DNA of 64,000 bases, taken from the NCBI GenBank assembly GCA_009746045.1, contig RPFO01000184.1:576881-640880 (forward strand), written 5' to 3'. Position 1 is the first letter of the stretch. Each line of letters opens with the position of its first letter. Positions 4,581 to 53,285 of the stretch are shown here, piece by piece. The translations under genes were made by a program, and so were the position numbers. This DNA comes from Mesostigma viride. Taxonomy: Eukaryota; Streptophyta; Mesostigmatophyceae; Mesostigmatales; Mesostigmataceae. Below the pieces are notes generated by a model. That model searched no databases and was not told where the DNA came from. It saw only the letters and a program-made list of their open reading frames with translations.

Positions 4581-4619
4581 GCCCCTTTTTATTTGGACCA
4601 GGAACACATCCCACAACTA

Positions 4620-28796: not shown

Positions 28797-29649
28797 CTAG
28801 GGCGTGACGTGCCGGTCGCGCAGGCTCTCCCAGTACTTGATGTTGGACATCATCTCGTCCAGGACGGGCGCGGAGTCGGGGAATTGGCTCACCCACGCCT
28901 CGTACAAGGGGAGCGCGATGAAGGAGAAGAAGCCGAGCTGCATAGTCATAATAGATAGGGCGCATGCCATGAGGGCGTAACATCAGTATGATGAAGGAGA
29001 AGAAGCCGAGCTGGGGCAGGTGGTTGTTCTCGCAGCTCATGCGCCTACCCTGTCCCCATTGTGTGCGCATATGCTCCATTCCCCCCCCTTGTGTGAGCAT
29101 GTGCTCCATATGTTACTATGCTAGTATATTAGTAATGATACACCTGGCCCTTGGGCAGGTCGTTCTCGCGGTCCATGTGCACCCTCCCCATCAGGTGCGC
29201 ATGTGCTCTATCAACCACACCAGTGAAGTAGCAACATCTCTGTTACAATACTATACCTTGCCCTTGGGCAGGTCGTGGTTCTCGCGGCCCATGTATAACA
29301 TATGACATTCCACATTCACATTTCACTAGTAAAGCACGACACCACTATTGCTCGTTCCATGCCCAACCATACCTGGCTCTTGGGTAGGTCGTTGTTCTCG
29401 CGGTCCATGAACGGCGACACCTTGAACCCCTGCGCCTTCTCCTTGTCACCCTGCAGGTAGAACTCCTCGGTGATCGCGTCGGTCCACTTCTTGTGGATGG
29501 CCAGCTTCTTGGCTGAGTGGCCGATGTCGGCCACTTTGAGCGCGATCTGCATCAGCAGCAGCCGGTCGGTCTCGCTTTCGCGGCTGATCGGGTTTTCCTT
29601 GTCCTTGATGCGCTTCTTGAACAGCTCCACCAGCTCGAAGTGGCGCTTG
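28797..29649 (-). CDS. Phosphodiesterase exons 9 and 10: C-terminal half of the catalytic domain
   Basis: Exon 9 (29373-29649) encodes RHFELVELFKKR, LLMQIALKVADIGHSAKK with the second metal-binding Asp, and SPFMDRENNDLPKSQ. Exon 10 (28797-28937) adds LGFFSFIALPLYEAW and ends at TAG. The intron falls directly after the conserved Gln codon (CAG|GT). The invariant order Gln-x-Gly-Phe and PLYE-W matches known PDEs such as the PDE4 group. Confidence 0.9.
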
Positions 29650-32600
29650 CTGGACAAGGGGGCGAGGGGAGACATCGGGTGGGGTGGACTCTGCAAACAT
29701 TAGCGAACACATGTGACTATTTCGCTGAACATATTTCATATTATTGAGCTTTCTGGAACAGCTCCACCCGCTCAAATCGGCGCTCGCGGGGCGAGGGCGA
29801 CAACAGTGGGAGGCACGAACAAGGGTGCGGGAGTGGGTGATTGAGTGAGTCGAGGTTGTGAGCTGAGTTTGCGATACCACGCAGTCCAGGACGTGACTGT
29901 AGAGTTTGCGATGCGGTGAGTTTGCGACGCCGTGAGGCCAAGGGAGGGGAACGCAAGACCAAGGTTGGCAACACGCCTTGGGGCGACCAAGTCGACGTGA
30001 AGCAGCATCCTGACCAACCCCTGGAAGAACTTATCCATATACACATTATACACTATACATATTATGCTTCAGTAATAATCTATCATTTAGGGGAGGACAA
30101 GCACTGGGAGCAACACACGGCAAGGTTAGAAAACATTTGCTGGACGATACCTCCCCCACCCCCCCACGCCGCTCCGGGTACACAACCATTTGTTACTGAT
30201 ATACACTGGCCGAGAGGATGCGGGGAAGAAGAATAAACAAATGAGCGGGCTTGTAAGCCCAGGTCCAGTAGGCAACATTTTATGCTGACAAATTCAGAGA
30301 GAGAGAGCACAAATGATGTAGTCGGGTGTCGGAAACAGGCATAAACATTTTGCTCTGATTTACGAAGGAAGGAGAACCGAAATGGTGGGTCGAGTAGGCT
30401 GCATTTGCAACAAGTGAGGGGGGAAAAGCCACCAGTGGGCTCCGCACGAACACGAAAAGGTGCCCACAAAAGTGCAGGAAGCCCACTGGTCGTTATGACC
30501 ACATCGCGCACCCCCTGTGCTCCATCCCAAGCAAACTAGTAGTGACTACAGCCAGCATGCCATAGTCCGTGTGGTATGCACTCACAGGTCGGATCCCAGC
30601 ACCAGCTCGATGACCGCGTTGCGCACGTATTTGAAGTCCTCCTTGTCCAGCACGTCCAGAAAGTTCAACTCCTCCATCGCGAGCAGAATGAACGCCTCGG
30701 CCACGTGGAAATTCTCCAACACCGTCCGATCGTTGTACCGCAACGCCAGCGCATCCGACGACCGCACGACAAAGTCATTGTTCAACCCCGGGTGCCGGAA
30801 ATCGTGCACAAGCGCCGCGGTGATGGCCGCCAACACATCGAGCCGGGTGAGGTACGACCCTACACCCGAGTGCCTAATCAAATGATACAGGCTGTTGGCC
30901 ACGTCCGCAATGTGCGTGCTGTTATGGTACTTGTTCGCGGGCATGCCATCGTCCAGGAGAAGCAAGAAACGCGTCAGCTTATCGAGCGGCAGCTTGAAGA
31001 CCTTCAGCACGCCCGCGCGCCGGTACAGCTCCAGCCCCATCCACAGGATCGGCTGACCGCTGGACGCCAAGGCCAACTCCATCGTGTCGTAATTCCAGCG
31101 GCCGATACCCTCGAGGCTGGCCCGAATCGCCTGCATGGCCGGGTGCTGCTGGTGGCCCCCCCCGCCCCGGCCACCACCCCCGACCCCACCCCCCGCCGCC
31201 CCCGCTCCGGCCAACGCCGCATGGATCACCGTCGGGTGCGGGCGAGGATACACCATCTCCGGGCTGCTGATCACGTGGAGCGTCCCTGGCGGCGCAGCGG
31301 TCACGTCATCGTCGGGCAGCGTTGGCAGGTGGGAGCTAGCAGAGATGCGCATGCGAGCATACGTTCCGAAATCAGTGCTGGAGCGTCCCATCGCATACGT
31401 CCCGTAGTCCTTGAGCGACATCTCCTCCTCGGGTTGGCCCTGCTGGATGACCTGGCGCATGATCTCAACGACCGTGTCCAAGGTGCCGTCGTCGTTCGCG
31501 TTGGGGCCGCTCATAGTGCGCATGAGGGGGCTCCCGCCGACGAGCGTGAGCTCGTCTGGCTCGGAGCGGCGGTAGAAGGAGAGCGCGCCGATGCCGATGT
31601 CGGCGCGGTTGCTAGCGAGGGAGGAGGTGCGGGGAAGCCGCATGACGGTGGAGCGCAGCCACGCGCTGAGGTCGTCATCGAGCATCTGAGAGAGGGTGGG
31701 TGGGTGGGTTGGTGGGTGGAAGACACAAGTTTACGGAGTGACAGGCATTTTGAGCGTGGGACAAGGGCCACGAGAGCCGAGGTTGTCATCGAGAACCTGC
31801 ACGGGCTGAGGAAAAGGTGGAAGGAGACGCCGGAAGATTGGAGCGGTAGATTTAGCACCCAGGGTATGTGGACCAGAGGTTGTCATCAAGCATCTGACAG
31901 GCGGAGGGGGGCAAGACAAGGAAATAAAAAAGTGAGCAGACGTTCACGAGTAATACGCGTGACAGGCAAGGGCTACATAGTGGGGGAATGCCAGTTGAGG
32001 GCCACAAGGGGTGACGTCGTCATCCAGCATCTGTGCACCGCGAGAGGGTACCCACGAAGGCTACGTAAGGTGAGACGGGCTGGTCCGACAAGAAGGATGT
32101 GGGGCAAGAAGGACGTGGGAGGAGAAAGATGTGGGATGAGAAGGGCGTGGGAGGACATGATGATGTATGATGAGAATGATGGGGAATGAGACCGAGGGTT
32201 AGCAGGTAAGAAGCCGTGAGTGATGCATGCGCGAAGGCATGATGCGCTGGTTATGCATGCGCAAAGAAAGGCGTGGGAGAGAGGATGTACGAAAAGGGGA
32301 GGGGTCAGAGAAAGGCGTGCGGAGAGCTGTGCATTAGGGGGCTATCACAGGGGTAGATGTTGGTTATATATTGGTTTACAACTTTCCATCATGAGATAGT
32401 CATCGCATCGCTAATTGGTTAGACAGCAAGGGAAAGGGGGAGATTATCATCATTTGCATGGAAGGGTGGATGACCGTGGGACGGGGTGGGGGGGTAAGGG
32501 GAAAGAGAAAATGATGGAGAAGCACGTTTGCTGTAGAGACTGACATGAAAGGAAGCAGGGGTATGGCGCCATGGCGGACTGACATATGCAGAATGGAACC

Positions 32601-35492
32601 CCCGACTGCTCGAGGACCAAGGGGTTCCCCTCAAACAGCCCAGCCCACCCACGGGTTATCTACTCTCCCACCTCTGGGGTCATTCTGCTCTAAAATGACT
32701 AGCTAGGGCTACGGAATGTGACCTCTTTGTCACGAGGGGAAGCCTTCCCGGACCCTACAATGGCAGACCCGCCTCCAGGGGTCACAGGCTCCTCTGTGGC
32801 TGACCTATCTCCGGCGGCACGGCCCCCATGGCTGGCACCACCGGGTTGACATATCATGAATGCCAGCGGGTGCCCCTCGTGTCCCAAAGTAGTCAGACCC
32901 CCTACCACGGACCCACCCCATGGGTACTCGCCTCTACAACTAAATGCACCTATCAGCTTGTCTGATCCAACATGCCCAGCCCCACCTCAAAACAGCCGCC
33001 GTCGGCTCTACAGTGAACCCATTGGCTCTTCTACAGTGAACCCAATGGCTCCTCTACAATGAGCCCCATGGATCCTCAACAATGAACCCGTTGGCTCCTC
33101 TACGACGAACCCACCTGTGGCGGCACGCCGCCCATAGCCTTCACCACTGGGTTGGGCCCGGAGCTTGATCCCCCGCTGTGGTTGGCCAGCGCATCCTGCA
33201 GCACGACGGGCATGTGCAGCTCGGGCATCTTGAGCAGCGACTGGATCACGTTCAGCGTCTCCGAAGTGGGCACCTTGTTCTGGGCCGACAGCTCACTGGG
33301 GGGGAAGGGGACAAGGGGGGAAATGGAGGTAGGGGGGGGGGGGGGGGGGGGGAGGGGGGGGGGCGTAGAGGCAGGGGGAAGGACAGGGGGAGGAGTAAAG
33401 AGGGGGAGAGGCAGGGGTGGAGGAAGGGGTGGAGGTCGTGGTAGGGTTATTAGGTAGGGGAAAAGGAAGGGGACGAGGAAGGAGAAGAGGCGCGGAGGGG
33501 GAGAGGCAGGGAGGTGGGTTGGGGGGCAGTTTGGGGGAGAGGCAGGCAGGGGAGAAGGTAGAGAAGTGCAAGGCAGGCAAGAGAATAGGCAGGCAGAAAG
33601 GAAAAAGGCAGAGGGAGGGAGATGCAGGGGGGAAGGCAGGCAGAGCGAGGGTCAGCAACACGTAACCGAATCACTCACTCGCTCACTCATTCATGCGCTT
33701 CCATCGGGAGAGCCACGGGGTATATAAAAGACAACATGGTTAAAGTTGGCACAAGATCAGAACAGCGGAACCACCAAGTATGCTGGTAGCGGTAACCAGG
33801 CCAACACAGGAAAACAAGAGATTGAGAGTACGTGACCATAGGATACTCATCGCTGCCGCTTTTGCCCATTAAATCCTGAACCACCATTGGACACAGCCCC
33901 CACCCCCACCCCCCCATCCCCCCCTCTTTCCCCCTGAATACAGTAATATGCAACATAATAGCTTTTGTTAAATTAAACCATTTAAAAGCACTTGAACTAC
34001 GTTGACAGCACACAGTTATCGGTTTTGAGAACACCGACGATACGTTGTCTTGCCCCCATCTACATTGTCTTACCATCGATACACACATACAGAGGTCGTC
34101 TGCGCCCGCTTCCACCGGGGTGTTTTGATGTGACCCCCCAGCATTATTCATGCTCCTTACATCGCCTTACCCGCGTCAGTGCCCTTTCCAAACGCTCACG
34201 CAAGCAGGTCGCGGACCGTCAGTTATGGTAATTATTGATGCGAAACCCTTTTGCCACTCGGCACAAAGGTTCCCCATCAATATATTACCTTGCGATGGAA
34301 CCTACCTTTACAGGGGCATAAACTTATGCGTTCATAAACTTAGGTTACCAGCGAGCGGTTATCACTGGGTAAATATTGGTGCGGAGCCGGTGTGCCGAGC
34401 AGAAACAGGCTTTCGCACAATATTTCGTCTCCCTCCGCGTGTTACATACCATGCGCATTTACTGTTGCGCTTTAGTCATAAAGAAAGTAAATATTTAGTA
34501 AGTAGTAAGCAAAACAGGTGTTTATCGTACCCTTCCACCTAAACATATATGCAACACTCACGAGAGCAGGTCGTTAATCGTCTCCATTGGCGTGCGCATG
34601 TCCATCGACACCCGCCCCGACGTCCCACTCGGCAAGAGCGCTCTCATATGGTCCAACTCCTTGGCCATCTTCTCCATCTCTCCCTCCTGCTTCTCGACCT
34701 CGTTCTCCAACGCTTTGGCCTCCTTGGCCATCTGCTTTATCTTCAGCGTCGAGATGTACACGCCCAGCACGCCCAGCACCGCGATCGAGAGGGTCACGGC
34801 GAGAACGATCACCAGCAGGCGGTGCTTGGTGTGGTCGACCGCGCCCATGATGATCTTCCGGGGGAGTAGCATCACGCCCACCATCGGCAGCCGCCCGCGG
34901 GAACCCCCGTAAACGCTCCCGTGGCAGTGGAGGTACCAGCGCTTGCCGCCCACGGTGATCTGCGCCGCATTGAACAAGAGGTGGTCTCAGTTTGGTTACA
35001 CTTGAATAAGGATATATTTATTGTTAGCATACCAGCGCTTGCAGCCCGCGGTGATCTGCGCACGCACAGAGGGTTTTCTTAATATTTCCCCCCCCCCCAT
35101 TCGTTACACTTGAATGATGACATAATTATCAACAGGGGCATCGGCGCTTGCCGCCCCCGGTGATCTGCGCCGGATGCGGAAAACAATTTTTTTTTACAGT
35201 CAAGGTACTCTTTGGCTGAGCTGCGAAGAAGGGGTAGCGAGGAAGAGGGCAGGGGGGAAGGACGTACCATAATCAACATGTCAAACCGCTCACCACCGTC
35301 CCACACAATCACACAGGCCCAGCCATCATTCCAACCATCACTCACACCGCTCTGTAGTCCACACTCACCACCATATCGTAGTTAAACCACTCACCACTGC
35401 GTATCAACAATACCAACAACATGAATGATATAACAATCAGTTGTTACCACTTACCACCACATATCGACAATTATAACAATAGCAATACAAAA

Positions 35493-35535
<43 letters not shown>

Positions 35536-38500
35536 TGGCGATGGCAACGACGACGACCACGACGACAACGACGGCGGCGGCGGCGACAACGACGCCCACC
35601 ACCACAACAATGACGATAGAATCGTCGTGCCCACTCACCACCGCGTATCAGAATAGCAATACTCGAGAGAAGGTATTCGCGTCGTCGTGCCCACTCACCA
35701 CCGCGTATCAGAATAGCAATACTCGAGAGAAGGTATTCGCGTCGTCATGACCACTCACCACGGTGTCGTAGTCGTACCAGCACAGGCCCGCCTGTGCGGC
35801 CGCGAGCGCCAGCTCCGTGTCTTCACTACCATTCCCCGCGATCCCCTGCAGGCTGTTCCTCTTCCCTATGACCGGGCCGGCCACGGAGAACGCCGCCCTC
35901 AAGTGCTTGCCCGCGGCCGCGATGACCGGGTCGTCCGACAGATCCGCGGTGATCGCGGCCCGCAGCGGCTTGCCGTCGTTGCTGGCCGAGCCTGGGACCT
36001 CCCTGGACAGCTGCCCCTCGTTGGCGATCACGAGCATGCCGTCCTTGACGAGCGAGAAGAAGAGCCGCCCGCCGTGCAGGGTCGCGTCCATGCGAGACAA
36101 GAAGCTGTGGAGCGAGTTGGTCGACTTCGTCATGCCCACCACACCGATCACCGTGGAGTTCCGTGCGCCACTTGTCCCATTCGCGAGCGCTGGCGACGGG
36201 AGCGTCGACGTACCGTTGGCCGATGCCGCGTCCCCCGTCTGGTTGGCCCCCTCATTGACCACCGTGAGGGATGTCATCGCCGCGTAGACCATGGCGTTCG
36301 CCGCGCTCCCCGTGGGCAAGAGGCCCGTCCACCAGCCGACGACGCCGCGGGGCTGAGTCAGCCCGTCGCGGAAGTAAGGGAGCTGGGTCACCGAGGAGAT
36401 GGGGACGAAGGGGACATTGGCCTCTGGGACGGTCCAGGTGCCGAGTTCGGGGTCGGCGGGCGCGATGGCGCCGACCCACGCTCCAAGGGACTGGGACGCA
36501 TTGACCGGGTGGCCGAGCTGTGGGGGGGAAAGGTGGCCGGGGGTGAGTGGCGAGAGTGGGGGAGAGTTTAGCGTGGGGAGGAGTACAGGGGAAGGGAATG
36601 GGCCACAGAAGGGCAGGGGAGAGTACAGCGGGGGAGAGCGAGCAGGGAAGGATAGAGCAGGGGAAGCATTGGGGTGGGCGAGGGTGCATCGTGGGAGTGG
36701 AGCGGGGGTAGTGGCAGAAGGGCAAGCCGAGAAAGGAAGGAGAGGGGGGAAGGAGAGGGAAGAAGAGGAAAGGGAAGGAAAGGAGCGGCAGTGAGAGCGA
36801 AGTGAGAGGAAAGGAGAGGGAAGGAGAGAAAAGGGGAGGGAAGGAGAAGGAGAGGGGGGGGGGGGGGGGGGGGGCGGGGAAGGGAATAGAAAGGAGGGGG
36901 GCAAATGGAAGGTTAGGAGAGGGATGGGGTGGAGCGAGAGAGAGATGAGACAGGACGAGGGACGAGAAAGCATCAAGCAATGCCCGTGTCTAATGCCCCG
37001 ACATTGCTAGCGCCAGGAGTGTACTTTTTCTCCCCTGGTGCACATCGACATCATGTAGTGAACCCTGTTGAGAGCCATTCCTACTACAACAGGTGCACAC
37101 AGGAGATGGTAAGGGGTAGAGATGACCTGCTTACTGAGACCCTCCAAGACATCTTATCCATCTTGCCCAGTTCTATTATCCAACTCTGTTACCGGACCAC
37201 ATGATCACGCCTTGCGCCCCCCTGTGTTCAAGCCCTAGTACCCGCTTCAACTGTACACTAGCGCGCTGCTTGATGATCCTTAAGCACCTGCACTCAAATC
37301 CTGGTAGTACATAACACTGCACAGATACTATGGCAGCTACCACGTACAAAAATGCACTCCGTTGGGCTGCCCTCCCGCAGCAGGAATAGCACCCTCCTAC
37401 AGCAGGAATACCACGCTATCACATATTCTGAACAGAACTATCAGGGAGCAAGCACCAGATACATACGATCAAGTACACGGCGGCATCACCCTTCCGCCGA
37501 AACCACAAATTATACTATCTACATATCTCTTTCTCTCTAGCATGTTGAGAGGGGGGGATGATTTATGTAAAAAGTAGTATTCATTCTTGATGAACATAAA
37601 TTGAGGGGGTGGGCACCGTCACGTACGATCAGGTACGCCGTCGGGTCGCCCTCCCGCCGCAGGTATGTCACCGCGCCTCGATCCGTTCCATACGCGGCAT
37701 ACTCGGCGAACGGGACGGATTTGAACATCTCCCACAGCAGCGACCGCGCAAGGGGGTGGTACACGTTCTCTTGGATGAGCGGCGCGAGGCCTTGCCCATG
37801 CAAATTGGCCGACAGCACCAGCGTGCCAGTCACCATCTCGTTCACGAAATCGGCCATCTGCATGTGGGCCTGCAAGTGGAGGGGTGGGGGTGGGGGTGAG
37901 GGGGGGTCCAACAAGCAGTGGTGTGAACAGGCAACAGCATATGTCAGCCATCTGCATGTGGGCCTGCGTGCGCACACGCGCGCGCGTGTGTGTGTGTGTG
38001 TGCATGTGTGTGTGCCTGAGGGGAAAGAGGGTGGCGGCACACCAGGAGGGGCAGGGGGCAAGCAGGAAGCGGGGCACCAGATATGAGCATGTGGGCCCGT
38101 ACCTGTCTGTTTTGTGTGCGTGACGTAAATTTGTGCGTTTTTTTTTTTTTTTCTAGCATGAGTTTCTGGTCAATCCGCCCCTGACCAACACTATATCACT
38201 ACCACCTGCCAATACATACAAAACGGCGGCCATCGCCGCGCACACCCCCAGGTCTATATGTATGGCAGGCCTGACTCTGTTCTTCCCTAAATAACATAAA
38301 ACTACGAGACTGGGCTAGGTCAGAGATTCGTTAATATCGTCAATTCGATCTTTTTTTTAATAATTCTAAAATATGATCAAATCGATCAAAAGCATTTTGA
38401 CAACATTATGAAATCCATTCTATAAAAAAAAAACTTTGACACCATGATCAAATCAATGAAAAGCAATTTTGAAAGTATGATCCAATCAATAAAATATCTT

Positions 38501-41500
38501 TCTTACAATATGATCAGATCAACCGAAAAAAATTTCAACGAATGATCCAGTGTTTCTGCTGACGGGCTGCGCGCAGCAACATGTGGCCTCCGGCCGCCAG
38601 ATTTTGGGGCCCGCGGTCACACGTGGCCGCCGCATTTCCGTGGCCGCGGGATTTCGGTGGCCGCGGCCACAGGCCTACAAGTCTTGTGACCATGGTCACT
38701 TCTGGCTGCGGGTTGTGCTTGTTAGTGTGCCCATTGGCCGGTCAGTGGTAACTTCCGAGGGGTGTGCTGAAATTGTCAGAACCGAAATTCCCGAGTACAG
38801 AGGGTTGACTGAACAAAATTCAGCCTTCCTTGGTTTATTGCTGAAATCAGATATTTTCCAGTATCCGCGTTCCGAGGACTGCCTCATAGATTGGTGCCGA
38901 CGTTGCCAACCTGGCTCAAGACCTACCTAGAGGCTAGACTCAAGAGCCTGCACCATGCTGCGATGAATTATTGTAGCTGCTGCACGGTTGACGGTGCGGC
39001 GAAGCCAGTATGGCTGACCATTTCGTAGACATGATGCTAGGTTTTGTTGCTGGATAAAACGTAGTATTTAAAATAATCAGTGGAAGCGCATAGCAAATTT
39101 AGAGCCGATAGCGACTAGCCCTGCTTTGGGGGGATTTTGCTTGCCTTGGCGTGAAATGCGAACCTGTCGGCTAACGGAAGATTGAACATGGCCAGCAACA
39201 CTAGGAAAGAGTCTAGTGCAGGAGCGTCCGCCGCAGGCAGACCTAAAGGTATATTAGCGTGGCTCCTGCCACAACGTCCACTTTCTCGGCCACGGTCTTC
39301 GTCGGAGCCACGATCACCATCTCCATCATCTCATTCATCTGGTAAAGCTGGCCGCAGCCTGCCTGGCGATGCCATGCCCCAAGCAGTGCCTGATCCGACG
39401 CCATGGTCAGGGGATCTACAGCCGCCTGGGAATCTGAGTAATGTCGAAGCTAGCCTCAATTCTGAATCTCACGAGAAGAATAGCGGGACAAGCTCTGGGT
39501 CGTCTCACTCACGTCCGCATTCTGACGATATTGCTCGAAATTCAGGTCATGGAAAGCATCTCCGTAGCTCAACTGAATCTTAAAGCAGCGACTCTACAAG
39601 CAGCAGCTCTTCAAGCAGTGATGCAGAAAGCTCGCAGCGGCCATCAAAGCGCAGGAAGGAGGACATTTTATGTAGTGCCTCAAGTCAAGCAGGAGTTTAT
39701 AGAGTTTTCAACCTAGTAATCCTACATAGCACTTGCCAGTTGCCCGGCCAATGGCCAGTTGGCCATGCCCTCGAGTTTTGGCCCATATGGCATGTGTGAC
39801 TTCACTTCATCACTTGTTACGGCGTCATCTAAATTTATTATTGTTGCTGTTAATTTAATGGTTTGACGGTCCTCAATCCTATCGTGCACATTGGATATCG
39901 CCACTGTGCCTATGAAGGGAGTGAAGGCTGTAAATACAGTAGTAAGGGCTGTCAGGCCATAAGCCGGTGAGGCATAATTGCCTTATCAGTGCCTGCCATT
40001 ATTAATCCACGTCCCACCTAACATCCCACCTAACAATGCCTATATAATGGTATAGCAACCCCCCCCCCCATTCCCCAATACAAAGCCGACCTAGGCTAAG
40101 CACTCAATGGTGTGCATAACACATCTTGCTTGCAACACAGCTATGTTGAAAGGTGCGACCACGGGATTTTGGTGGCTGAGGTCACATTGACCGCAGGATT
40201 TTGGGAGCCGTGGTCACACGCGACCGCAGCCCAAAAACCCTTTGCAGAAACACTGGAATGATCAAAATGATAAACGACGATTTCGACAAGACAACGAAGT
40301 GATAAAAGACAATGTCGACAGTATGATAAAATCAACAAAAGACAATTTCAAAAATATGATCAAATCGATCTTTAAAAAAATGACAATATGATCAAATCGA
40401 TCGAAAACAATGTCGACAATAAATCGATCGAAAACAATTTTGACGATATGATCAGATCGATCAAAAACAATGTCAACAATATGATCAACTTGATCAAAAA
40501 CAATGTCAACAATACGATCAAATCCATAAAAAAACAATCTAAACAGTATGATGAATTCAAAAAGAACAAATGACGACAATATGATCAAATGATTTGAAAA
40601 ACGGTTTCATTGATGAATACTTACCACATAATATCAATGAGGTGGCCATCCGGCAGCGCATCCCCAAGGCATCCCATATGACGCCCCCGTGTTCAACCCT
40701 CCCCAACCGAACATGAAACCACCACCGCTGCAATGCTAGGACATACCACAGCGATCACCGGTAGAGCATCCCAACTTGCTTGGATATTGGAGGGGCTATG
40801 CGACGTCACCATTGGACGTCTACCACAGGGGGGGAGACGGGCAGAGCATCCCCAAGCCTATTTCCTGGCATCATTCGTGGACTACACAACTTCCTTGCTT
40901 GACACATGCCACAGTCGCCACCTGGTAGATGAACCCCATGCTAGCCTCCTGAATCATTCAATCCTGAATCATTCAATCATGTTAGTACATACCACAGTAG
41001 CCATCTGGTAGAGCATGCCAAGCCCCAGCTCGACCGCCTCTTGGTACATGGTCGCGTTGTACAGCCGCAGCACAAAGAGTGCGGTGCCCATGACAGAGAA
41101 CGCTAGCAGTAGCTGCACAGAGACACCACGCATGCATGGGCCATACGTACGCAGGTTTGATAAGTGAATTGTTACACGTGCGACACGCACCCCGTGGCAA
41201 GAGTCAGGGTTCGGCCAACTATGACCGCGAACACGGCGGCAACTGATGGGGAAATTATTACATTAGTATTAGTATTAGTATTAGTATTAGTATTAGTATT
41301 AGTATCAGTATTAGTATTAGTATTAGTATTAGTATTAGTATTAGTATTAGTATTAGTATTAGTATTAGTATTAGTATTAGTGATTAGTGATTAGTGCTAG
41401 TGCTAGTGCTAGTGCCAGTGCCAGTGCCAGTGCCAGTGCCAGTGCCAGTGCCAGTGCCAGTGCCAGTGCCAGTGCCAATGCCAGTGCCAGTGCCAGTGCC

Positions 41501-42624
41501 AGTGCCAGTGCCAGTGCCAGTGCCAGTGCCAGTGCCAGTGCCAGTGCCAGTGCCAGTGCCAGTGCCAGTGCCAGTGCCAGTGCCAGTGCCAGTGCCAGTG
41601 CCAGTGCCAGTGCCAGTGCCAGTGCCAGTGCCAGTGCTAGTGCTAGTGCTAGTGCTAGTGCTAGGTTAGTGTTAGTGTTAGTGTTAGTGTTAGTATGACA
41701 GTCCTTCCCGCGTTAAGTTACGATCGCCGCCATATTCTGGGCGTCGTAACTTAACGCGGGAACGTAACTTAACGGTAAAATTAGGCTAGCAGCCCACCCC
41801 CCTCTAGTCTGACGGATTTCTACACGGCATTCAACAGCTCTCGTCGACTCAAAGTACGGGATTTCGTACCAGATTCTGGATGCAGCGAGGTGCTTGGGTG
41901 ATAGGCTGATAGCATCGTTGGCAGCTGCGAGTTTGCTTGTTCACCTCAGTTCAGTTCCGGCTGAGCAGTTCATCCTGTAGCCGGGCGCTTGCTATCTTCT
42001 ATGTTCCGGGAATGATCCAGGTTCCCTGTTCCCTGCCGAGCTCGGCCTAATTGCCACTAATTAACTGGAGCCGCATTCAGCATGGTATTTTGCCTCCTAA
42101 AACGTCACAATCATAGTTAGATACAGTCGTCTCACTTAGCTATTAGCACAGCGGGTTCCATAGTCCGGAGTCCGGGCGACCCTAATTTGGCCAAAAATGG
42201 CATCCTCCGCGGCCAAAAGCAGCCTGACACCTGCAGTTTGGCTCGATCCCGCGGTAATTTACGATGGTACTCAGGCTTAATTTACGGTCGCCGTCCACCG
42301 GCGTCACCATTAACGCAGGAACGCACCCTTAATAATCGTAACTTAACACAACAATGGGAGGAGGAGGAGTAGCAGGAGGAGGAGGAGGAGGAGGAGGAGG
42401 AGGAGGAGGAGGAGGAGGAGGAGGAGGAGGAGGAGGAGGAGGAGGAGGAGGAGGAGGAGGAGGAGGAGGAGGAGGAGAGGAGGAGGAGGAGGAGGAGGAG
42501 GAGGAGGAGGAGGAGGAGGAGGAGGAGTAGGAGGACTATGAGTACTAGTATTCGTCGTCGTTGTTGTTGTTGTCGTCATCGTAGTAGTAGTACTAGTTGT
42601 ACTAGTAGTAGTAGTAAGTAGTGC

Positions 42625-42695
<71 letters not shown>

Positions 42696-43822
42696 ATAGT
42701 AGTAGTAGTAGTAGTGATATTAGTAGTATGAGTATTGTTATTAGTTATGTTATTATTACTATTATTATTTAAAAACCTTGCTTTCAATGGTGGTCGCGCA
42801 TTTGGTGCTATGTCTACGCGGCATCCTCAATCCTAGCTCTCGTGCAAATTGGGTTCAAGAAAGCTGCAATCATAATTAATTACAGGCTCCCAAAGAGCAG
42901 GGCATAGGCTCATGATAAAGGCACATTAGAGAGGCAAAGCTAATTGGTTTAGAGATTGTGAAAACGTCATGCTTGAAAAGGGTTAGAAGATAGGGTTGGA
43001 AAGGCAATTAAGGATGATGAGTGAGAGAAACGAGGCTGGCCGAGCAAGAAAATACCAGCCAGTGGTGTCTACGCAGCTGGTGCCTGGAACGCAAAGCCTG
43101 CAACGCAAAACCATTGTGAAATTGTCCCTGTGAATGCTGCAAATGCCGGAGCATCCCCAAACAAAGCAGGAAGAATTTCGATACAGGCCCTTTTCCCCAC
43201 AGATTACCACACATTGCCACCCGATCGTCCCCAAAACGGGGTCCCCCGCCCCCATGGCGCCCCCTTTGGCCCCGCCTTGCTTTACTTGACAACACGAGTG
43301 CCATCTGTTTCTGAACAACAACAACAACACCCCCTATCTGTACACATGTGCTATGCACCACCACGGAATCCACTTGTGTCCTGAAGGTGAGGTACGCCTC
43401 TATCCCCTCTTCCCCCCTCGCTTACTCACCACAAGGGCCACACGTGTCCAAAAAGCAAGGTTCCTGTGGCGGTGCGCAAAGCTATACGTGGACAAGGAGC
43501 TCGGGCTGCGAAGAACCGCCTTGCTGATTATGGCATGTTCGTATGCGCCCCCGTGGCCATTGCGCAGAAGATCCGCAGCGTCCGTCAGGTGCCACACAGG
43601 GGTGCTCACGCCGCCCATGTCGGCCCCGCTCGATACTTTCTTGAGCAGGCGCTCAGGAGACGCGCCTGTACTGGCCCCTAATTCAACATCGGGTGTCTCT
43701 GGGCCATCGGCGCTGTGGGCCGAGACATTGGCCCCCCAGGCAATGCTGGGCTGAAGCTCGTAGGACACGGAGGGCGACCTGCTGCCTTTGGACGCCACGT
43801 CATGGGGGCCTTTCGAACCCAT
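28797..43822 (-). CDS. Receptor-like, membrane-anchored cyclic-nucleotide phosphodiesterase, ten exons
   Basis: Exons in gene order: 43822-43426, 41242-41187, 41112-40993, 37869-37627, 36517-35759, 34959-34562, 33295-33115, 31685-30586, 29649-29373, 28937-28797. They total 3672 nt with continuous phase, giving 1223 residues. Architecture: cytosolic N-terminus (1-125), hydrophobic segment(s) (about 126-172), extracytoplasmic region (about 175-570), transmembrane helix (573-595), coiled coil (598-632), linker, then a class I PDE catalytic domain (about 910-1223) that hydrolyses cAMP and/or cGMP. Metal-binding residues are visible: H972/H976 (YHNSTHIADV), H1012-D1013 (VHDFRHPGLNN), D1126 (KVADIGHSAKK), and the nucleotide-binding Gln at 1177 (KSQLGFFSF). 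It probably couples an external signal to second-messenger breakdown. The exon 2 donor (GTGTCG) and the start codon are tentative; specificity cannot be read from sequence. Confidence 0.85.
28985..29300 (-). repeat. Junction copies in intron 9
   Basis: Exon 9's end with its donor (CGCGAGAACAACGACCTACC then AAG) recurs, diverged, at 29256-29300 (donor AAG|GTATAG) and 29139-29185 (donor CAG|GTGTAT). At 28985-29050 it is fused to the first 24 nt of exon 10 (CTCGGCTTCTTCTCCTTCAT) without any intron. Spacing is about 111, 117 and 127 bp. Confidence 0.85.
29745..29790 (-). repeat. Copy of the exon 9 start in intron 8
   Basis: In gene sense, GCGAGCGCCGATTTGAGCGG and GTGGAGCTGTTCCAGAA align with exon 9's start (CAAGCGCCACTTCGAGCTGG and GTGGAGCTGTTCAAGAA) over about 40 nt. 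It lies about 110 bp before the real acceptor. Translated, FERVELFQK corresponds to FELVELFKK. Confidence 0.8.
30586..31685 (-). CDS. Phosphodiesterase exon 8: linker and N-terminal half of the PDE catalytic domain
   Basis: 366 codons plus two bases. The first 190 are a variable linker with a Gly-rich run (GGGVGGGGRGGGG). The catalytic part begins around WNYDTMELALASSGQ and includes FLLLLDDGMPANKYHNSTHI, the HD motif ALVHDFRHPGLNNDF and LENFHVAEAF. These match the family pattern of class I phosphodiesterases. It ends within the domain in phase 2; exons 9 and 10 complete it. Confidence 0.92.
31781..32039 (-). repeat. Three copies of the exon 8 acceptor in intron 7
   Basis: The real acceptor reads CAG|ATGCTCGATGACGACCT (31685). 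Diverged copies with their own AG lie at 31781-31800 (CAGGTTCTCGATGACAACC), 31877-31900 (CAGATGCTTGATGACAACCT) and 32011-32039 (CAGATGCTGGATGACGACGT). Spacing is about 100-135 bp. Confidence 0.85.
32799..33110 (-). repeat. Copies of the exon 7 end and donor region in intron 7
   Basis: 32799-32850 reproduces about 42 nt of the exon 7 end (in gene sense CAACCCGGTGGTGCCAGCCA then TGGGGGCCGTGCCGCCGG; real CAACCCAGTGGTGAAGGCTA then TGGGCGGCGTGCCGCCAC). 32995-33110 is a set of ~25-bp units (TGTAGAGGAGCCAATGGGTT) continuous with the real donor sequence. Confidence 0.75.
33299..33650 (-). repeat. Polypyrimidine tract before the exon 7 acceptor
   Basis: About 350 nt almost purely G and A on the + strand, hence C and T in the transcript, ending at the acceptor of exon 7 (33295). 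It includes long poly-G runs (33330-33360). A similar 420-nt tract precedes exon 5. Mirror-type homopurine runs of this size can form triplex DNA. Confidence 0.85.
34189..34220 (-). repeat. Copy of the exon 6 donor in intron 6
   Basis: Gene-sense GACGGTCCGCGACCTGCTTG then CGTGAGCG aligns with the exon 6 end AGACGATTAACGACCTGCTC then TCGTGAGTG over about 28 nt. It lies 370 bp inside the intron. Confidence 0.65.
34562..34959 (-). CDS. Phosphodiesterase exon 6: transmembrane helix and signalling coiled coil
   Basis: Encodes RWYLHCHGSV, then HRLLVIVLAVTLSIAVLGVL (transmembrane, residues about 573-595) and immediately a charged heptad-like stretch, KQMAKEAKALENEVEKQEGE and onward (598-632). A coiled coil just inside the membrane is the usual arrangement for dimeric receptor enzymes that pass a signal to a catalytic domain. 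It ends in phase 2 at GTGAGT. Confidence 0.8.
35030..35180 (-). repeat. Two copies of the exon 6 acceptor in intron 5
   Basis: The real acceptor is GCGCAG|ATCACCGTGGGCGGC (34959). Copies at 35031-35065 (GCGCAGATCACCGCGGGCTG then CAAGCGCTGGT) and 35138-35180 (GCGCAGATCACCGGGGGCGG then CAAGCGC) match 19-23 exon bases each. The sequence between copies also repeats (GTTACACTTGAAT), so whole ~100-bp units were duplicated. Confidence 0.88.
35363..35758 (-). repeat. Copies of the exon 5 donor in intron 5
   Basis: The real exon 5 end and donor read TACGACACCGTG|GTGAGTGG. Two 60-bp tandem copies follow (35627-35746) with GATACGCGGTGGTGAGTGGG, and further ones at 35438-35470 and 35363-35405 (for example AACTACGATATGGTGGTGAG). 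A GGCGAC-type microsatellite (35487-35600) lies between them. Confidence 0.8.
35759..37869 (-). CDS. Phosphodiesterase exons 4 and 5: extracytoplasmic sensor region
   Basis: Exon 4 (37627-37869, 81 codons) and exon 5 (35759-36517, 253 codons) join in phase 0 at YLI|LGH. The region has many potential N-glycosylation sites (NAS, NQT, NGT, NST) and sits between two membrane segments, so it is most likely extracellular or lumenal. Its length and position resemble Cache-type sensors of receptor enzymes, but I see no diagnostic ligand motif and call it only an uncharacterised sensor region. Confidence 0.7.
36521..36965 (-). repeat. Polypyrimidine tract before the exon 5 acceptor
   Basis: About 440 nt of G/A-rich + strand sequence (C/T in the transcript) ending at the exon 5 acceptor (36517), with GGGGGAAGGAGAGGGAAG-like units and a poly-G run at 36857-36876. 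No junction copy is evident in it. Confidence 0.8.
37342..37504 (-). repeat. Two copies of the exon 4 end and donor in intron 4
   Basis: The real exon end and donor (gene sense) is GCGTACCTGATC|GTACGTGACG. 37461-37504 reads GCCGTGTACTTGATC|GTATGT. 37342-37391 reads CGGGAGGGCAGCCCAACGGA then GTGCATTTTT|GTACGTGGTA, matching the exon over about 45 nt. Confidence 0.82.
37925..37975 (-). repeat. Copy of the exon 4 acceptor in intron 3
   Basis: Gene-sense CACGCAG|GCCCACATGCAGATGGC recurs about 90 bp before the real acceptor TTGCAG|GCCCACATGCAGATGGC, identical over 17 exon bases and then diverging. A CACG/GTGT simple repeat lies just beyond it. Confidence 0.85.
38345..40620. repeat. GATC-rich minisatellite in intron 3, split by a hAT element
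   Basis: 38345-38547 and 40256-40600 consist of degenerate units of about 24-33 bp such as ACAATATGATCAAATCGATC with AAAAACAATGTC. The hAT element (38548-40255) interrupts it; the eight bases GAATGATC on both sides belong to the repeat. Confidence 0.8.
38548..40255. mobile_element. Non-autonomous hAT-type transposon, 1708 bp, in intron 3
   Basis: Terminal inverted repeats CAGTGTTTCTGC (38548-38559) and GCAGAAACACTG (40244-40255) are flanked by the perfect 8-bp duplication GAATGATC (38540-38547, 40256-40263). Both the 5'-CAGTG terminus and the 8-bp duplication are hallmarks of hAT elements. GC-rich subterminal blocks with GGCCGCGGGATTTCGGTGGC-like units follow each end. Inside, a Ser-rich frame with a good start context (39188-39583, 131 residues) has no recognisable domain, and no hAT transposase core is visible, so it depends on a transposase elsewhere. 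Confidence 0.87.
40620..40990 (-). repeat. Copies of the exon 3 end and donor in intron 3
   Basis: The real junction on the + strand reads ACATACCACAGTAGCCATCT then GGTAGAGCATGCC. Copies: 40909-40945 (ACATGCCACAGTCGCCACCT then GGTAGATGAACCCC), 40740-40775 (ACATACCACAGCGATCACCG then GTAGAGCATCCC), and weaker ones at 40822-40856 and 40620-40672 (ending GGCAGAGCATCCCC and GGCAGCGCATCCCC). Confidence 0.8.
40993..41242 (-). CDS. Phosphodiesterase exons 2 and 3: membrane segment and entry to the outer domain
   Basis: Exon 2 (41187-41242) encodes AAVFAVIVGRTLTLATGC and exon 3 (40993-41112) LLLAFSVMGTALFVLRLYN and then YQEAVELGLGMLYQMATV. The 74-bp intron between them is the shortest in the gene and shows no junction copies. 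The exon 2 donor GTGTCG is the only phase-compatible GT, so this boundary is the weakest in the model. Two adjacent hydrophobic runs may form one long or two short helices. Confidence 0.6.
41262..41697. repeat. Hexanucleotide microsatellites in intron 1
   Basis: (TTAGTA)n at 41262-41385 grades into (GTGCTA)n and (GTGCCA)n (41396-41660) and then (GTTAGT)n. Adjacent units differ by one base, so the array evolved stepwise by spreading of variant hexamers. Confidence 0.95.
42356..42720. repeat. (GGA)n and (GTA)n microsatellites in intron 1
   Basis: (GGA)n with few interruptions at 42356-42535, then mixed trinucleotides, then (GTA)n at 42602-42716. On the transcript strand the first is a pure CCT tract. 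Confidence 0.95.
43185..43381 (-). repeat. Possible copies of the exon 1 donor in intron 1
   Basis: The real junction on the + strand is CTTACTCACCACAAGGGCCA then CACGTGTCC. Looser matches lie at 43359-43381 (CACCACGGAATCCACTTGTG then TCC), 43279-43315 and 43200-43225. Spacing would be about 65-80 bp. These are the weakest of the junction copies. Confidence 0.4.
43426..43822 (-). CDS. Phosphodiesterase exon 1: cytosolic N-terminus and start of the first membrane segment
   Basis: 132 codons plus one base. Polar, low in recognisable structure, ending in the hydrophobic VALVV. With donor GTAAGC (phase 1) it joins exon 2 to give VALVVIAAVFAVIVG, one uninterrupted membrane helix. The stronger-looking GTGAGT one codon earlier would put exon 2 into a stop, so the inner donor is preferred. 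The frame stays open upstream of the ATG, so an earlier start is possible. Confidence 0.65.
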
Positions 43823-48065: not shown

Positions 48066-51000
48066 TTGAGTTGAGTTGAGTTGAGTTGAGTTGAGTTGAG
48101 TTGAGTTGAGTTGAGTTGAGTTGAGTTGAGTTGAGTTGAGTTGAGTTGAGTTGAGTTGAGTTGAGTTGAGTTGAGTTGAGTTGAGTTGAGTTGAGTTGAG
48201 TTGAGTTGAGTTGAGTTGAGTTGAGTTGAGTTGAGTTGAGTTGAGTTGAGTTGAGTTGAGTTGAGTTGAGTTGAGTTGAGTTGAGTTGAGTTGAGTTGAG
48301 TTGAGTTGAGTTGAGTTGAGTTGAGTTGAGTTGAGTTGAGTTGAGTTGAGTTGAGTTGAGTTGAGTTGAGTTGAGTTGAGTTGAGTTGAGTTGAGTTGAG
48401 TTGAGTTGAGTTGAGTTGAGTTGAGTTGAGTTGAGTTGAGTTGAGTTGAGTTGAGTTGAGTTGCGTTGCGTTGCGTTGCGTTGCGTTGCGTTGCGTTGCG
48501 TTGCGTTGCGTTGCGTTGCGTTGCGTTGCGTTGCGTTGCGTTGCGTTGCGTTGCGTTGCGTTGCGTTGCGTTGCGTTGCGTTGCGTTGCGTTGCGTTGCG
48601 TTGCGTTGCGTTGCGTTGCGTTGCGTTGCGTTGCGTTGCGTTGCGTTGCGTTGCGTTGCGTTGCGTTGCGTTGCGTTGCGTTGCGTTGCGTTGCGTTGCG
48701 TTGCGTTGCGTTGCGTTGCGTTGCGTTGCGTTGCGTTGCGTTGCGTTGCGTTGCGTTGCGTTGCGTTGCGTTGCGTTGCGTTGCGTTGCGTTGCGTTGCG
48801 TTGCGTTGCGTTGCGTTGCGTTGCGTTGCGTTGCGTTGCGTTGCGTTGCGTTGCGTTGCGTTGCGTTGCGTTGCGTTGCGTTGCGTTGCGTTGCGTTGCG
48901 TTGCGTTGCGTTGCGTTGCGTTGCGTTGCGTTGCGTTGCGTTGCGTTGCGTTGCGTTGCGTTGCGTTGCGTTGCGTTGCGTTGCGTTGCGTTGCGTTGCG
49001 TTGCGTTGCGTTGCGTTGCGTTGCGTTGCGTTGCGTTGCGTTGCGTTGCGTTGCGTTGCGTTGCGTTGCGTTGCGTTGCGTTGCGTTGCGTTGCGTTGCG
49101 TTGCGTTGCGTTGCGTTGCGTTGCGTTGCGTTGCGTTGCGTTGCGTTGCGTTGCGTTGCGTTGCGTTGCGTTGCGTTGCGTTGCGTTGCGTTGCGTTGCG
49201 TTGCGTTGCGTTGCGTTGCGTTGCGTTGCGTTGCGTTGCGTTGCGTTGCGTTGCGTTGCGTTGCGTTGCGTTGCGTTGCGTTGCGTTGCGTTGCGTTGCG
49301 TTGCGTTGCGTTGCGTTGCGTTGCGTTGCGTTGCGTTGCGTTGCGTTGCGTTGCGTTGCGTTGCGTTGCGTTGCGTTGCGTTGCGTTGCGTTGCGTTGCG
49401 TTGCGTTGCGTTGCGTTGCGTTGCGTTGCGTTGCGTTGCGTTGCGTTGCGTTGCGTTGCGTTGCGTTGCGTTGCGTTGCGTTGCGTTGCGTTGCGTTGCG
49501 TTGCGTTGCGTTGCGTTGCGTTGCGTTGCGTTGCGTTGCGTTGCGTTGCGTTGCGTTGCGTTGCGTTGCGTTGCGTTGCGTTGCGTTGCGTTGCGTTGCG
49601 TTGCGTTGCGTTGCGTTGCGTTGCGTTGCGTTGCGTTGCGTTGCGTTGCGTTGCGTTGCGTTGCGTTGCGTTGCGTTGCGTTGCGTTGCGTTGCGTTGCG
49701 TTGCGTTGCGTTGCGTTGCGTTGCGTTGCGTTGCGTTGCGTTGCGTTGCGTTGCGTTGCGTTGCGTTGCGTTGCGTTGCGTTGCGTTGCGTTGCGTTGCG
49801 TTGCGTTGCGTTGCGTTGCGTTGCGTTGCGTTGCGTTGCGTTGCGTTGCGTTGCGTTGCGTTGCGTTGCGTTGCGTTGCGTTGCGTTGCGTTGCGTTGCG
49901 TTGCGTTGCGTTGCGTTGCGTTGCGTTGCGTTGCGTTGCGTTGCGTTGCGTTGCGTTGCGTTGCGTTGCGTTGCGTTGCGTTGCGTTGCGTTGCGTTGCG
50001 TTGCGTTGCGTTGCGTTGCGTTGCGTTGCGTTGCGTTGCGTTGCGTTGCGTTGCGTTGCGTTGCGTTGCGTTGCGTTGCGTTGCGTTGCGTTGCGTTGCG
50101 TTGCGTTGCGTTGCGTTGCGTTGCGTTGCGTTGCGTTGCGTTGCGTTGCGTTGCGTTGCGTTGCGTTGCGTTGCGTTGCGTTGCGTTGCGTTGCGTTGCG
50201 TTGCGTTGCGTTGCGTTGCGTTGCGTTGCGTTGCGTTGCGTTGCGTTGCGTTGCGTTGCGTTGCGTTGCGTTGCGTTGCGTTGCGTTGCGTTGCGTTGCG
50301 TTGCGTTGCGTTGCGTTGCGTTGCGTTGCGTTGCGTTGCGTTGCGTTGCGTTGCGTTGCGTTGCGTTGCGTTGCGTTGCGTTGCGTTGCGTTGCGTTGCG
50401 TTGCGTTGCGTTGCGTTGCGTTGCGTTGCGTTGCGTTGCGTTGCGTTGCGTTGCGTTGCGTTGCGTTGCGTTGCGTTGCGTTGCGTTGCGTTGCGTTGCG
50501 TTGCGTTGCGTTGCGTTGCGTTGCGTTGCGTTGCGTTGCGTTGCGTTGCGTTGCGTTGCGTTGCGTTGCGTTGCGTTGCGTTGCGTTGCGTTGCGTTGCG
50601 TTGCGTTGCGTTGCGTTGCGTTGCGTTGCGTTGCGTTGCGTTGCGTTGCGTTGCGTTGCGTTGCGTTGCGTTGCGTTGCGTTGCGTTGCGTTGCGTTGCG
50701 TTGCGTTGCGTTGCGTTGCGTTGCGTTGCGTTGCGTTGCGTTGCGTTGCGTTGCGTTGCGTTGCGTTGCGTTGCGTTGCGTTGCGTTGCGTTGCGTTGCG
50801 TTGCGTTGCGTTGCGTTGCGTTGCGTTGCGTTGCGTTGCGTTGCGTTGCGTTGCGTTGCGTTGCGTTGCGTTGCGTTGCGTTGCGTTGCGTTGCGTTGCG
50901 TTGCGTTGCGTTGCGTTGCGTTGCGTTGCGTTGCGTTGCGTTGCGTTGCGTTGCGTTGCGTTGCGTTGCGTTGCGTTGCGTTGCGTTGCGTTGCGTTGCG

Positions 51001-53285
51001 TTGCGTTGCGTTGCGTTGCGTTGCGTTGCGTTGCGTTGCGTTGCGTTGCGTTGCGTTGCGTTGCGTTGCGTTGCGTTGCGTTGCGTTGCGTTGCGTTGCG
51101 TTGCGTTGCGTTGCGTTGCGTTGCGTTGCGTTGCGTTGCGTTGCGTTGCGTTGCGTTGCGTTGCGTTGCGTTGCGTTGCGTTGCGTTGCGTTGCGTTGCG
51201 TTGCGTTGCGTTGCGTTGCGTTGCGTTGCGTTGCGTTGCGTTGCGTTGCGTTGCGTTGCGTTGCGTTGCGTTGCGTTGCGTTGCGTTGCGTTGCGTTGCG
51301 TTGCGTTGCGTTGCGTTGCGTTGCGTTGCGTTGCGTTGCGTTGCGTTGCGTTGCGTTGCGTTGCGTTGCGTTGCGTTGCGTTGCGTTGCGTTGCGTTGCG
51401 TTGCGTTGCGTTGCGTTGCGTTGCGTTGCGTTGCGTTGCGTTGCGTTGCGTTGCGTTGCGTTGCGTTGCGTTGCGTTGCGTTGCGTTGCGTTGCGTTGCG
51501 TTGCGTTGCGTTGCGTTGCGTTGCGTTGCGTTGCGTTGCGTTGCGTTGCGTTGCGTTGCGTTGCGTTGCGTTGCGTTGCGTTGCGTTGCGTTGCGTTGCG
51601 TTGCGTTGCGTTGCGTTGCGTTGCGTTGCGTTGCGTTGCGTTGCGTTGCGTTGCGTTGCGTTGCGTTGCGTTGCGTTGCGTTGCGTTGCGTTGCGTTGCG
51701 TTGCGTTGCGTTGCGTTGCGTTGCGTTGCGTTGCGTTGCGTTGCGTTGCGTTGCGTTGCGTTGCGTTGCGTTGCGTTGCGTTGCGTTGCGTTGCGTTGCG
51801 TTGCGTTGCGTTGCGTTGCGTTGCGTTGCGTTGCGTTGCGTTGCGTTGCGTTGCGTTGCGTTGCGTTGCGTTGCGTTGCGTTGCGTTGCGTTGCGTTGCG
51901 TTGCGTTGCGTTGCGTTGCGTTGCGTTGCGTTGCGTTGCGTTGCGTTGCGTTGCGTTGCGTTGCGTTGCGTTGCGTTGCGTTGCGTTGCGTTGCGTTGCG
52001 TTGCGTTGCGTTGCGTTGCGTTGCGTTGCGTTGCGTTGCGTTGCGTTGCGTTGCGTTGCGTTGCGTTGCGTTGCGTTGCGTTGCGTTGCGTTGCGTTGCG
52101 TTGCGTTGCGTTGCGTTGCGTTGCGTTGCGTTGCGTTGCGTTGCGTTGCGTTGCGTTGCGTTGCGTTGCGTTGCGTTGCGTTGCGTTGCGTTGCGTTGCG
52201 TTGCGTTGCGTTGCGTTGCGTTGCGTTGCGTTGCGTTGCGTTGCGTTGCGTTGCGTTGCGTTGCGTTGCGTTGCGTTGCGTTGCGTTGCGTTGCGTTGCG
52301 TTGCGTTGCGTTGCGTTGCGTTGCGTTGCGTTGCGTTGCGTTGCGTTGCGTTGCGTTGCGTTGCGTTGCGTTGCGTTGCGTTGCGTTGCGTTGCGTTGCG
52401 TTGCGTTGCGTTGCGTTGCGTTGCGTTGCGTTGCGTTGCGTTGCGTTGCGTTGCGTTGCGTTGCGTTGCGTTGCGTTGCGTTGCGTTGCGTTGCGTTGCG
52501 TTGCGTTGCGTTGCGTTGCGTTGCGTTGCGTTGCGTTGCGTTGCGTTGCGTTGCGTTGCGTTGCGTTGCGTTGCGTTGCGTTGCGTTGCGTTGCGTTGCG
52601 TTGCGTTGCGTTGCGTTGCGTTGCGTTGCGTTGCGTTGCGTTGCGTTGCGTTGCGTTGCGTTGCGTTGCGTTGCGTTGCGTTGCGTTGCGTTGCGTTGCG
52701 TTGCGTTGCGTTGCGTTGCGTTGCGTTGCGTTGCGTTGCGTTGCGTTGCGTTGCGTTGCGTTGCGTTGCGTTGCGTTGCGTTGCGTTGCGTTGCGTTGCG
52801 TTGCGTTGCGTTGCGTTGCGTTGCGTTGCGTTGCGTTGCGTTGCGTTGCGTTGCGTTGCGTTGCGTTGCGTTGCGTTGCGTTGCGTTGCGTTGCGTTGCG
52901 TTGCGTTGCGTTGCGTTGCGTTGCGTTGCGTTGCGTTGCGTTGCGTTGCGTTGCGTTGCGTTGCGTTGCGTTGCGTTGCGTTGCGTTGCGTTGCGTTGCG
53001 TTGCGTTGCGTTGCGTTGCGTTGCGTTGCGTTGCGTTGCGTTGCGTTGCGTTGCGTTGCGTTGCGTTGCGTTGCGTTGCGTTGCGTTGCGTTGCGTTGCG
53101 TTGCGTTGCGTTGCGTTGCGTTGCGTTGCGTTGCGTTGCGTTGCGTTGCGTTGCGTTGCGTTGCGTTGCGTTGCGTTGCGTTGCGTTGCGTTGCGTTGCG
53201 TTGCGTTGCGTTGCGTTGCGTTGAGTTGAGTTGAGTTGAGTTGAGTTGAGTTGAGTTGAGTTGAGTTGAGTTGAGTTGAGTTGAG
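48066..53285. repeat. 5.2-kb pentanucleotide satellite: TTGAG, TTGCG, TTGAG
   Basis: 79 copies of TTGAG (48066-48460), 952 apparently perfect copies of TTGCG (48461-53220) and 13 copies of TTGAG (53221-53285), all in register. The five-base unit without stops opens every frame, producing spurious proteins of about 1590 residues (+) and 1790 residues (-). Confidence 0.98.

Follow-up and report, generated by a model that had tools for sequence, protein, structure and literature searches.

Introns 3 to 9 of a phosphodiesterase (PDE) gene in Mesostigma viride, a unicellular streptophyte alga, carry copies of their own exon borders, in which exon sequence is repeated together with the neighbouring splice site. 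The best account of these copies, to which we give a probability of about 0.8, is that short tandem duplications straddling the borders were kept as intron and then decayed. The gene lies within the window, by which we mean the whole stretch of 64,000 nucleotides that was analysed (C80:576881-640880 of a 439.9-Mb assembly in 2243 contigs); with the other loci described below, about 194 kb of the 440-Mb genome was examined. The mean intron of this genome is reported to be 1141.87 bp long, and repeats are reported to make up 30.1% of intron space (PMC6947507).

The gene is encoded on the minus strand of positions 28797-43822, and its product carries a C-terminal PDEase_I domain (PF00233, 2.7e-76). 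Its best protein match, P0001 (eukprot jgi/Mesvir1/9423/Mv01523-RA.2), is 100% identical over 96% of the part searched, and the same search, limited to scoring the 7991 candidates with most words in common, returned 17 more PDE proteins with the Mesvir1 label. A ten-exon model like that of the first-pass annotation is open in frame from end to end; P0001 splices exon 1 (donor 43429, exon end 43430) straight to the exon starting at 41112, and exon 2 of the ten-exon model (41187-41242) and its 74-bp intron 2 are missing from it, as the peptide of that exon likewise is from the paralog proteins P0002 and P0006. We therefore used a model of nine exons, eight introns and 16 borders, in which the numbers of introns 3 to 9 are kept from the ten-exon scheme. 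The sequence of exon 2 was also considered as a diverged copy of the start of the next exon and rejected as such, its best score of 17 falling short of the shuffle 95th percentile, 24. At the other end of the gene, P0001 continues beyond exon 9 into intron 9 and terminates there; the last exon, which is not in P0001, is supported by the open frame and by the paralogs, with which the gene has in common the position of its last intron, between KSQ and LGFF. Five of the 18 Mesvir1 PDE proteins (P0001, P0009, P0011, P0014 and P0018) stop 9 to 19 residues past the KSQ that closes exon 9, an apparent read-through which suggests that retention of the last intron, or termination within it, recurs among paralogs. 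The exons, numbered as in the ten-exon scheme, are the following.

43430..43822, minus strand: exon 1, with the annotated donor at 43429 (match to P0001)
40993..41112, minus strand: exon 3, the second true exon (open frame and P0001)
37627..37869, minus strand: exon 4 (open frame and P0001)
35759..36517, minus strand: exon 5 (open frame and P0001)
34562..34959, minus strand: exon 6 (open frame and P0001)
33115..33295, minus strand: exon 7 (open frame and P0001)
30586..31685, minus strand: exon 8, inside which the PDEase_I domain begins (open frame and P0001)
29373..29649, minus strand: exon 9 (open frame and P0001)
28797..28937, minus strand: exon 10, the last (open frame and paralog intron position)

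Every border was taken as a query of 60 nt of exon plus 12 nt of intron and aligned to its own intron, with 300 dinucleotide shuffles as control. At 10 of the 16 borders (the donors and acceptors of introns 3, 7 and 9, the donors of introns 4 and 6, and the acceptors of introns 5 and 8) the own-intron copy scored above all 300 shuffles, and each of introns 3 to 9 holds at least one border copy, which bears out the first-pass annotation in its central claim that these introns contain copies of exon borders with the neighbouring splice sites. The donor of intron 5 was equalled by 2/300 shuffles but bears a 60-bp tandem array of 97% identity that extends three bases into exon 5 across the donor. 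At the remaining five borders shuffles did as well: 8/300 at the acceptor of intron 4, 53/300 at the donor of intron 8, 167/300 at the acceptor of intron 6, and 167/300 and 289/300 at the donor and acceptor of intron 1. The same annotation had described weaker copies in intron 1 and had singled out intron 2 as the only intron free of them, and neither statement survives: intron 1 is without border copies, a simple ATACTA repeat accounting for the matches at its acceptor, and intron 2 is the one missing from P0001. The weakest of the ten positive borders is the donor of intron 6, where the border-spanning query finds 18/21 identical positions and an exon-only query is equalled by 21/200 shuffles. 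The individual copies, found by border alignment unless otherwise stated, are listed below, followed by the two arrays.

40904..40929, minus strand: intron 3 donor copy, 23/26, donor now GC
40733..40774, minus strand: intron 3 donor copy, 34/42, GT kept
37944..37967, minus strand: intron 3 acceptor copy, 23/24, AG kept
37461..37499, minus strand: intron 4 donor copy, GT kept
37341..37393, minus strand: intron 4 donor copy, 40/53, GT kept
35362..35382, minus strand: intron 5 donor copy, 18/21, GT kept (2/300)
35144..35175, minus strand: intron 5 acceptor copy, 30/32, AG kept
35030..35066, minus strand: intron 5 acceptor copy, 34/36 and one inserted base, AG kept (read from the alignment)
34191..34211, minus strand: intron 6 donor copy, 18/21, the weakest
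32787..32848, minus strand: intron 7 donor copy, 46/62, GT lost
32012..32033, minus strand: intron 7 acceptor copy, 20/22, AG kept
31876..31911, minus strand: intron 7 acceptor copy, 29/36, AG kept
31767..31799, minus strand: intron 7 acceptor copy, 26/31, AG kept
29751..29797, minus strand: intron 8 acceptor copy, 38/47, AG lost
29250..29293, minus strand: intron 9 donor copy at +116, 38/44, GT kept
29142..29177, minus strand: intron 9 donor copy at +232, 34/36, 3-nt deletion, GT kept
29011..29041, minus strand: intron 9 donor copy at +368, 25/31, ending before the splice site and fused to an acceptor copy
28990..29013, minus strand: intron 9 acceptor copy, 24/24 (CAG and 21 nt of exon 10)
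35622..35761, minus strand: 60-bp tandem array, 2.3 units, 97%, with GTGAGTG in each unit (tandem-repeat scan)
33006..33113, minus strand: 23-bp tandem array, 81%, beginning at the intron 7 donor (tandem-repeat scan)

The fused pair at 28990-29041, in which a 31-nt copy of the end of exon 9 meets CAG and the start of exon 10, resembles the spliced junction minus six bases. As a relic of the origin of intron 9 it was rejected, the two halves differing in preservation (25/31 and 24/24) and the intron position being common to the paralogs.

The copies are specific to their own borders and keep one orientation, and this specificity bears on two further explanations. Introner-like or other mobile elements bearing splice sites would likewise place repeats with splice sites in introns, and such repeats are present here, but when exon-only 60-nt queries were used with the ten-exon model, 9 of the 18 borders scored above 200/200 shuffles and for all nine the own intron scored higher than the other introns (intron 2 left out), while border sequence finds its local matches in direct orientation only; we give this reading almost no credence. 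That the copies reflect chance, low complexity or an assembly artefact might be argued from the simple repeats behind the intron 1 matches and the repeat-rich nature of some introns, and is nevertheless highly improbable in view of the shuffle, inverted and non-cognate controls, and in view of the many divergence levels among the copies and the recurrence of the pattern in other genes. A scan of the window with sliding 50-nt windows, from which low-complexity sequence was dropped and in which a local match meant a score of 28 or more, gave direct matches for 13/28 border windows and inverted matches for 0/28; the corresponding figures were 4/103 and 0 for exon interiors, 44/274 and 7 for introns, and 186/1236 and 41 for the rest of the window. 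Local duplication is therefore frequent both inside and outside introns, and leaves the strongest trace at the borders.

Offsets of the 20 copies assessed span 60 to 390 nt from the border; the spacing of 60-135 bp that had been described as common is thus found in part, with 9/20 offsets at 60-137. The divergence levels, which run from exact to poorly preserved, agree with the earlier remark that the copies have decayed to different degrees. GT is present in 9/12 donor copies, and AG in 6/8 acceptor copies as computed, or 7/8 after one offset was corrected from the alignment. The retained dinucleotides would fit a role of the copies as functional alternative splice sites, or as exon ends used alternatively or in mutual exclusion, yet none of the 20 copies would, if spliced at its own site, insert an in-frame sequence free of stops, the annotated protein P0001 uses none of them, and mismatches show no third-position excess (29/158, 17/159 and 25/162 at the three codon positions; chi-square p 0.20). 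The earlier suggestion that the copies act as decoy or alternative splice sites thus finds no support, and alternative exon ends or sites in general are very unlikely; tandem or mutually exclusive exons in particular were rejected, the copies being partial, never in frame and free of coding constraint. With GT or AG absent from 4/20 copies, a figure that includes one copy cut before its splice site and allows for the corrected acceptor offset, and with no third-position bias, there is no sign of coding constraint or of strict splice-site constraint: the copies look like debris in decay and unlike coding sequence.

Support for a tandem origin comes from young units that still cross real borders. 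Head-to-tail units of exon plus intron are found at donor 5 of the window gene, at an acceptor and a donor of two PDE paralogs, and at a donor of a kinesin gene. In the kinesin gene (locus L026) the unit is exact over 82 nt at 70-bp spacing and comprises 23 nt of exon and 59 nt of intron (TRF), with an older third copy at +140 (27/30 identical) that covers the exon end and donor only. The last acceptor of PDE paralog L015 carries an 88-bp unit, 106/109 identical, made up of the intron end and 19 nt of the last exon, whose period TRF confirmed, and a donor of paralog L016 carries a 22-bp array of 7 units at 87%. These units, which differ in age, are all tandem duplications that cross a border, and the near-identical cases outside the window, together with the donor 5 array, uphold repeated tandem duplication across exon-intron borders, the process originally proposed, as the best account. 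Among older units the intron-derived parts can be recognised in some and not in others: in the window they were similar in 2/6 comparisons (units 1-2 of intron 9 and units 0-1 of intron 5), the other 4/6 giving nothing, and among the donor units of paralog L021 they were similar in 1/6, with nothing in 5/6. The two L021 acceptor units are like each other and like the L015 unit, all 3/3 comparisons standing at 0/300.

How widely the copies occur was gauged in further genes. Eight PDE paralog loci (80 kb, picked from PF00233 matches, with 19 introns mapped and unplaceable junctions left out) had 10/38 borders above all shuffles, with an inverted control of 0/38; among these ten, the L012 donor preceding VSIDG adjoins a CCT repeat. 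A second pass with longer queries at 12 chosen paralog borders, which masks the intron start and so hides copies nearer than about 90 nt, gave nothing for four and only simple repeat at the L012 donor. Seven further paralog last introns, tested with a cruder two-letter-block shuffle (L014 and L015 had been counted earlier, and five loci without a last acceptor were left out), yielded 2/14 positive borders, both in L021. Border copies are thus found at 12/52 paralog borders, and six of nine paralog last introns are without them, so that their presence varies among PDE paralogs; positive borders are more frequent in the window gene (10/16 against 12/52, Fisher p 0.0055), an excess to be expected because the gene was noticed for its copies. 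The last introns of L020 and L022, on different contigs (C1461 and C1), are almost identical (local score 1670), which points to a recent duplication of the locus, and the two loci are therefore not independent. The positions of intron 8 (LKRHF, phase 2) and intron 9 (KSQ and LGFF, phase 0) recur in paralogs whether or not these carry copies, and these two introns are therefore not newly gained. At the protein level, a search of 18 paralog proteins for duplicated border peptides gave self-repeat matches in four only, which by eye are low-complexity stretches.

Beyond the PDE family, the shorter of two kinesin genes selected for closely spaced exons (L026, C2189:669801-672700) was analysed with borders approximated from the domain match, its donors being placed afterwards; 3/6 borders stood at 0/300 shuffles and another at 1/300. 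Ten coding segments near the window gave copies at 3/20 approximate ends, one of them low-complexity and one at a stop codon. Border copies are not confined to one gene family. In intron 2 of the kinesin gene the acceptor (..GGCCGCACAG) is similar to the upstream exon end (..GGTCGCACAG), a likeness that a past origin of this intron by tandem duplication would lead one to expect.

The process that would account for these observations can be laid out as follows. Short tandem duplications with units of about 20-140 bp would arise repeatedly in genes of Mesostigma, presumably by slippage or break repair. Where such a duplication crosses a splice junction, the mRNA would keep using the exon-proximal site, that is, the outermost donor or the outermost acceptor, as is apparently the case in the annotated proteins, and the extra piece of exon, with its splice site and piece of intron, would become intron. 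The intron would gain one unit length, the protein would stay unchanged and the copy would decay, and repeated rounds would build a ladder of copies of different ages behind the border, so that the duplications probably add net intron length. Duplications inside exons would be removed because they alter the protein, and those inside introns would be harder to recognise because both copies drift.

Some observations sit less easily with decay by substitution of a simple tandem duplicate. When contiguous duplication followed by even decay was simulated, the share of alignments ending within 10 nt of the border never rose above 4% as long as divergence was 10% or less, whereas similarity in the adjoining intron (p<0.05) was found in only 7/19 copies, and in 2/8 of those with at least 90% exon identity; a purely neutral tandem model therefore leaves the missing flanks of well-preserved copies unexplained. 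Stringent border matches in the window have a ratio of length to spacing of 0.14-0.34, not about 1, except in the 60-bp array. Of three readings we favour two, namely that intron flanks turn over by indels larger than those simulated, or that copies are re-made repeatedly with preferred unit lengths; in the third, which is also possible, gene conversion or selection would renew the part of each copy that stems from the exon.

This last possibility amounts to a rival account, in which the copies are of tandem origin but their exon part was afterwards kept similar by short-tract gene conversion (concerted evolution) or by selection, for instance as splicing decoys. Well-preserved exon pieces beside unrecognisable intron flanks are what it would predict, and so is the way in which the copies in the last intron of four genes follow their own gene: at sites where the exons differ, they read 112 own, 11 other and 19 neither (non-independent pairs summed). 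Independent recent duplications in each gene would, however, give an equal match to the own exon, and the L014 donor copy is an exception in the opposite direction (own 5, other 7, neither 4). Maintenance would also explain why the donor ladders are alike in the window gene (+116, +232, +368) and in L021 (+117, +227, +364, +490) though the rest of window intron 9 has no detectable likeness to the L021 last intron (71/100 shuffles as good) and window intron 9, compared with six paralog introns, has no detectable sequence in common with them outside the border copies; against this, preferred unit lengths could yield similar ladders too. That the ladders predate the split of the paralogs and have stayed unchanged since was considered and is unlikely, the window reading own 13, other 0, neither 4 and L021 own 15, other 1, neither 3. 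The homology of the L021 and L015 acceptor units speaks for maintenance as well, but the flank of the window acceptor copy is not detectably like either: a motif after the exon 10 copy that seemed common to the paralogs was tested and rejected, 239/300 (L015) and 69/300 (L021) shuffles being as good. Added to the missing third-position bias and to the copies that have lost GT or AG, these points make conversion or selection on the whole unlikely. Its most far-reaching form, in which the ladders are maintained exon shadows amid a fully turning-over intron and possibly tune or buffer splice-site choice genome-wide, we regard as a rather doubtful proposition. We accordingly retain border-straddling duplication followed by decay as our reading.

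Intron lengthening is usually attributed to transposons and diffuse insertions. Border duplication is a plausible and directly testable way of intron growth, and would represent a second route to long introns that can be read from sequence, in which splicing, by holding to the outer site, lets duplications across a border be absorbed. Since the exon half of a copy has a conserved counterpart against which its age can be gauged, the copies form a fossil record of local duplication beyond what ordinary intron repeats offer. They also set up natural experiments on spliceosome choice between adjacent, almost identical sites, and hint at exchange between exons and their intronic copies.

Closely related border duplications are already known from human and potato. 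Tandem repeats at exon-intron boundaries modify introns in human genes of segmental duplications (PMC2812944), where, as here, minisatellite-like tandem units span the borders, with elongation of exon and intron; in that study recent duplicates are compared and the changes are read mainly as novel introns or alternative splicing, whereas here most borders of the PDE gene, and unrelated algal genes as well, show a decayed series of several ages. In a potato RdRp gene a tandem duplication crossing an intron-exon boundary created a new intron (PMC4974935); the duplicated piece, like those described here, crosses the boundary and bears 3' splice signals, but in Mesostigma the intron position is old where tested, the intron is longer and the extra sites are apparently unused. 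Tandem duplication is more generally an accepted route of intron gain (PMC3443670, PMC2891723). In the model of Rogers 1989 and Hellsten 2011 (cited in PMC4974935 and PMC3443670) duplication of an exonic AGGT yields a new intron, and splice sites are supplied by tandem duplication as here, although in our case the duplications concern borders already present, and no intron position was seen to be new. The novel intron positions of Drosophila include cases of tandem duplication (PMC2891723) in which gene structure is likewise changed, but which rest, unlike ours, on new positions. Introners (PMC9860276, in whose main text Mesostigma was not found) resemble the copies in being repeated intronic sequence with splice sites; they are common to many introns, whereas the copies, as compared within the PDE gene, are border-specific. 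In the literature searched, mostly at the level of titles and abstract openings, we found no account of border duplication in Mesostigma or gene-wide elsewhere, and what appears new is that it recurs, at several ages, in old introns throughout a gene as well as in genes of the same genome unrelated to it.

Outside the PDE gene the window holds several other repeats and coding stretches. A 5.2-kb TTGCG array with a 5-bp unit (48066-53283, more than 1000 copies, 99%) leaves several frames open, and related 26-bp arrays lie between two long arrays of a 21-bp unit that run in opposite directions (1-1682 and 4608-5500). Rfam and tRNA scans returned no matches. A 46-bp minisatellite of 64 units (8222-11164) precedes a coding stretch at 11558-11884, which we take to be a CutA-like C-terminal exon and which has a copy of its stop-codon region just downstream. 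Two reverse-transcriptase-like frames lie on the minus strand, the first of which (14515-15600) matches RVT_1, while the second (58076-58924), which has no Pfam match, is by eye closely similar to it.
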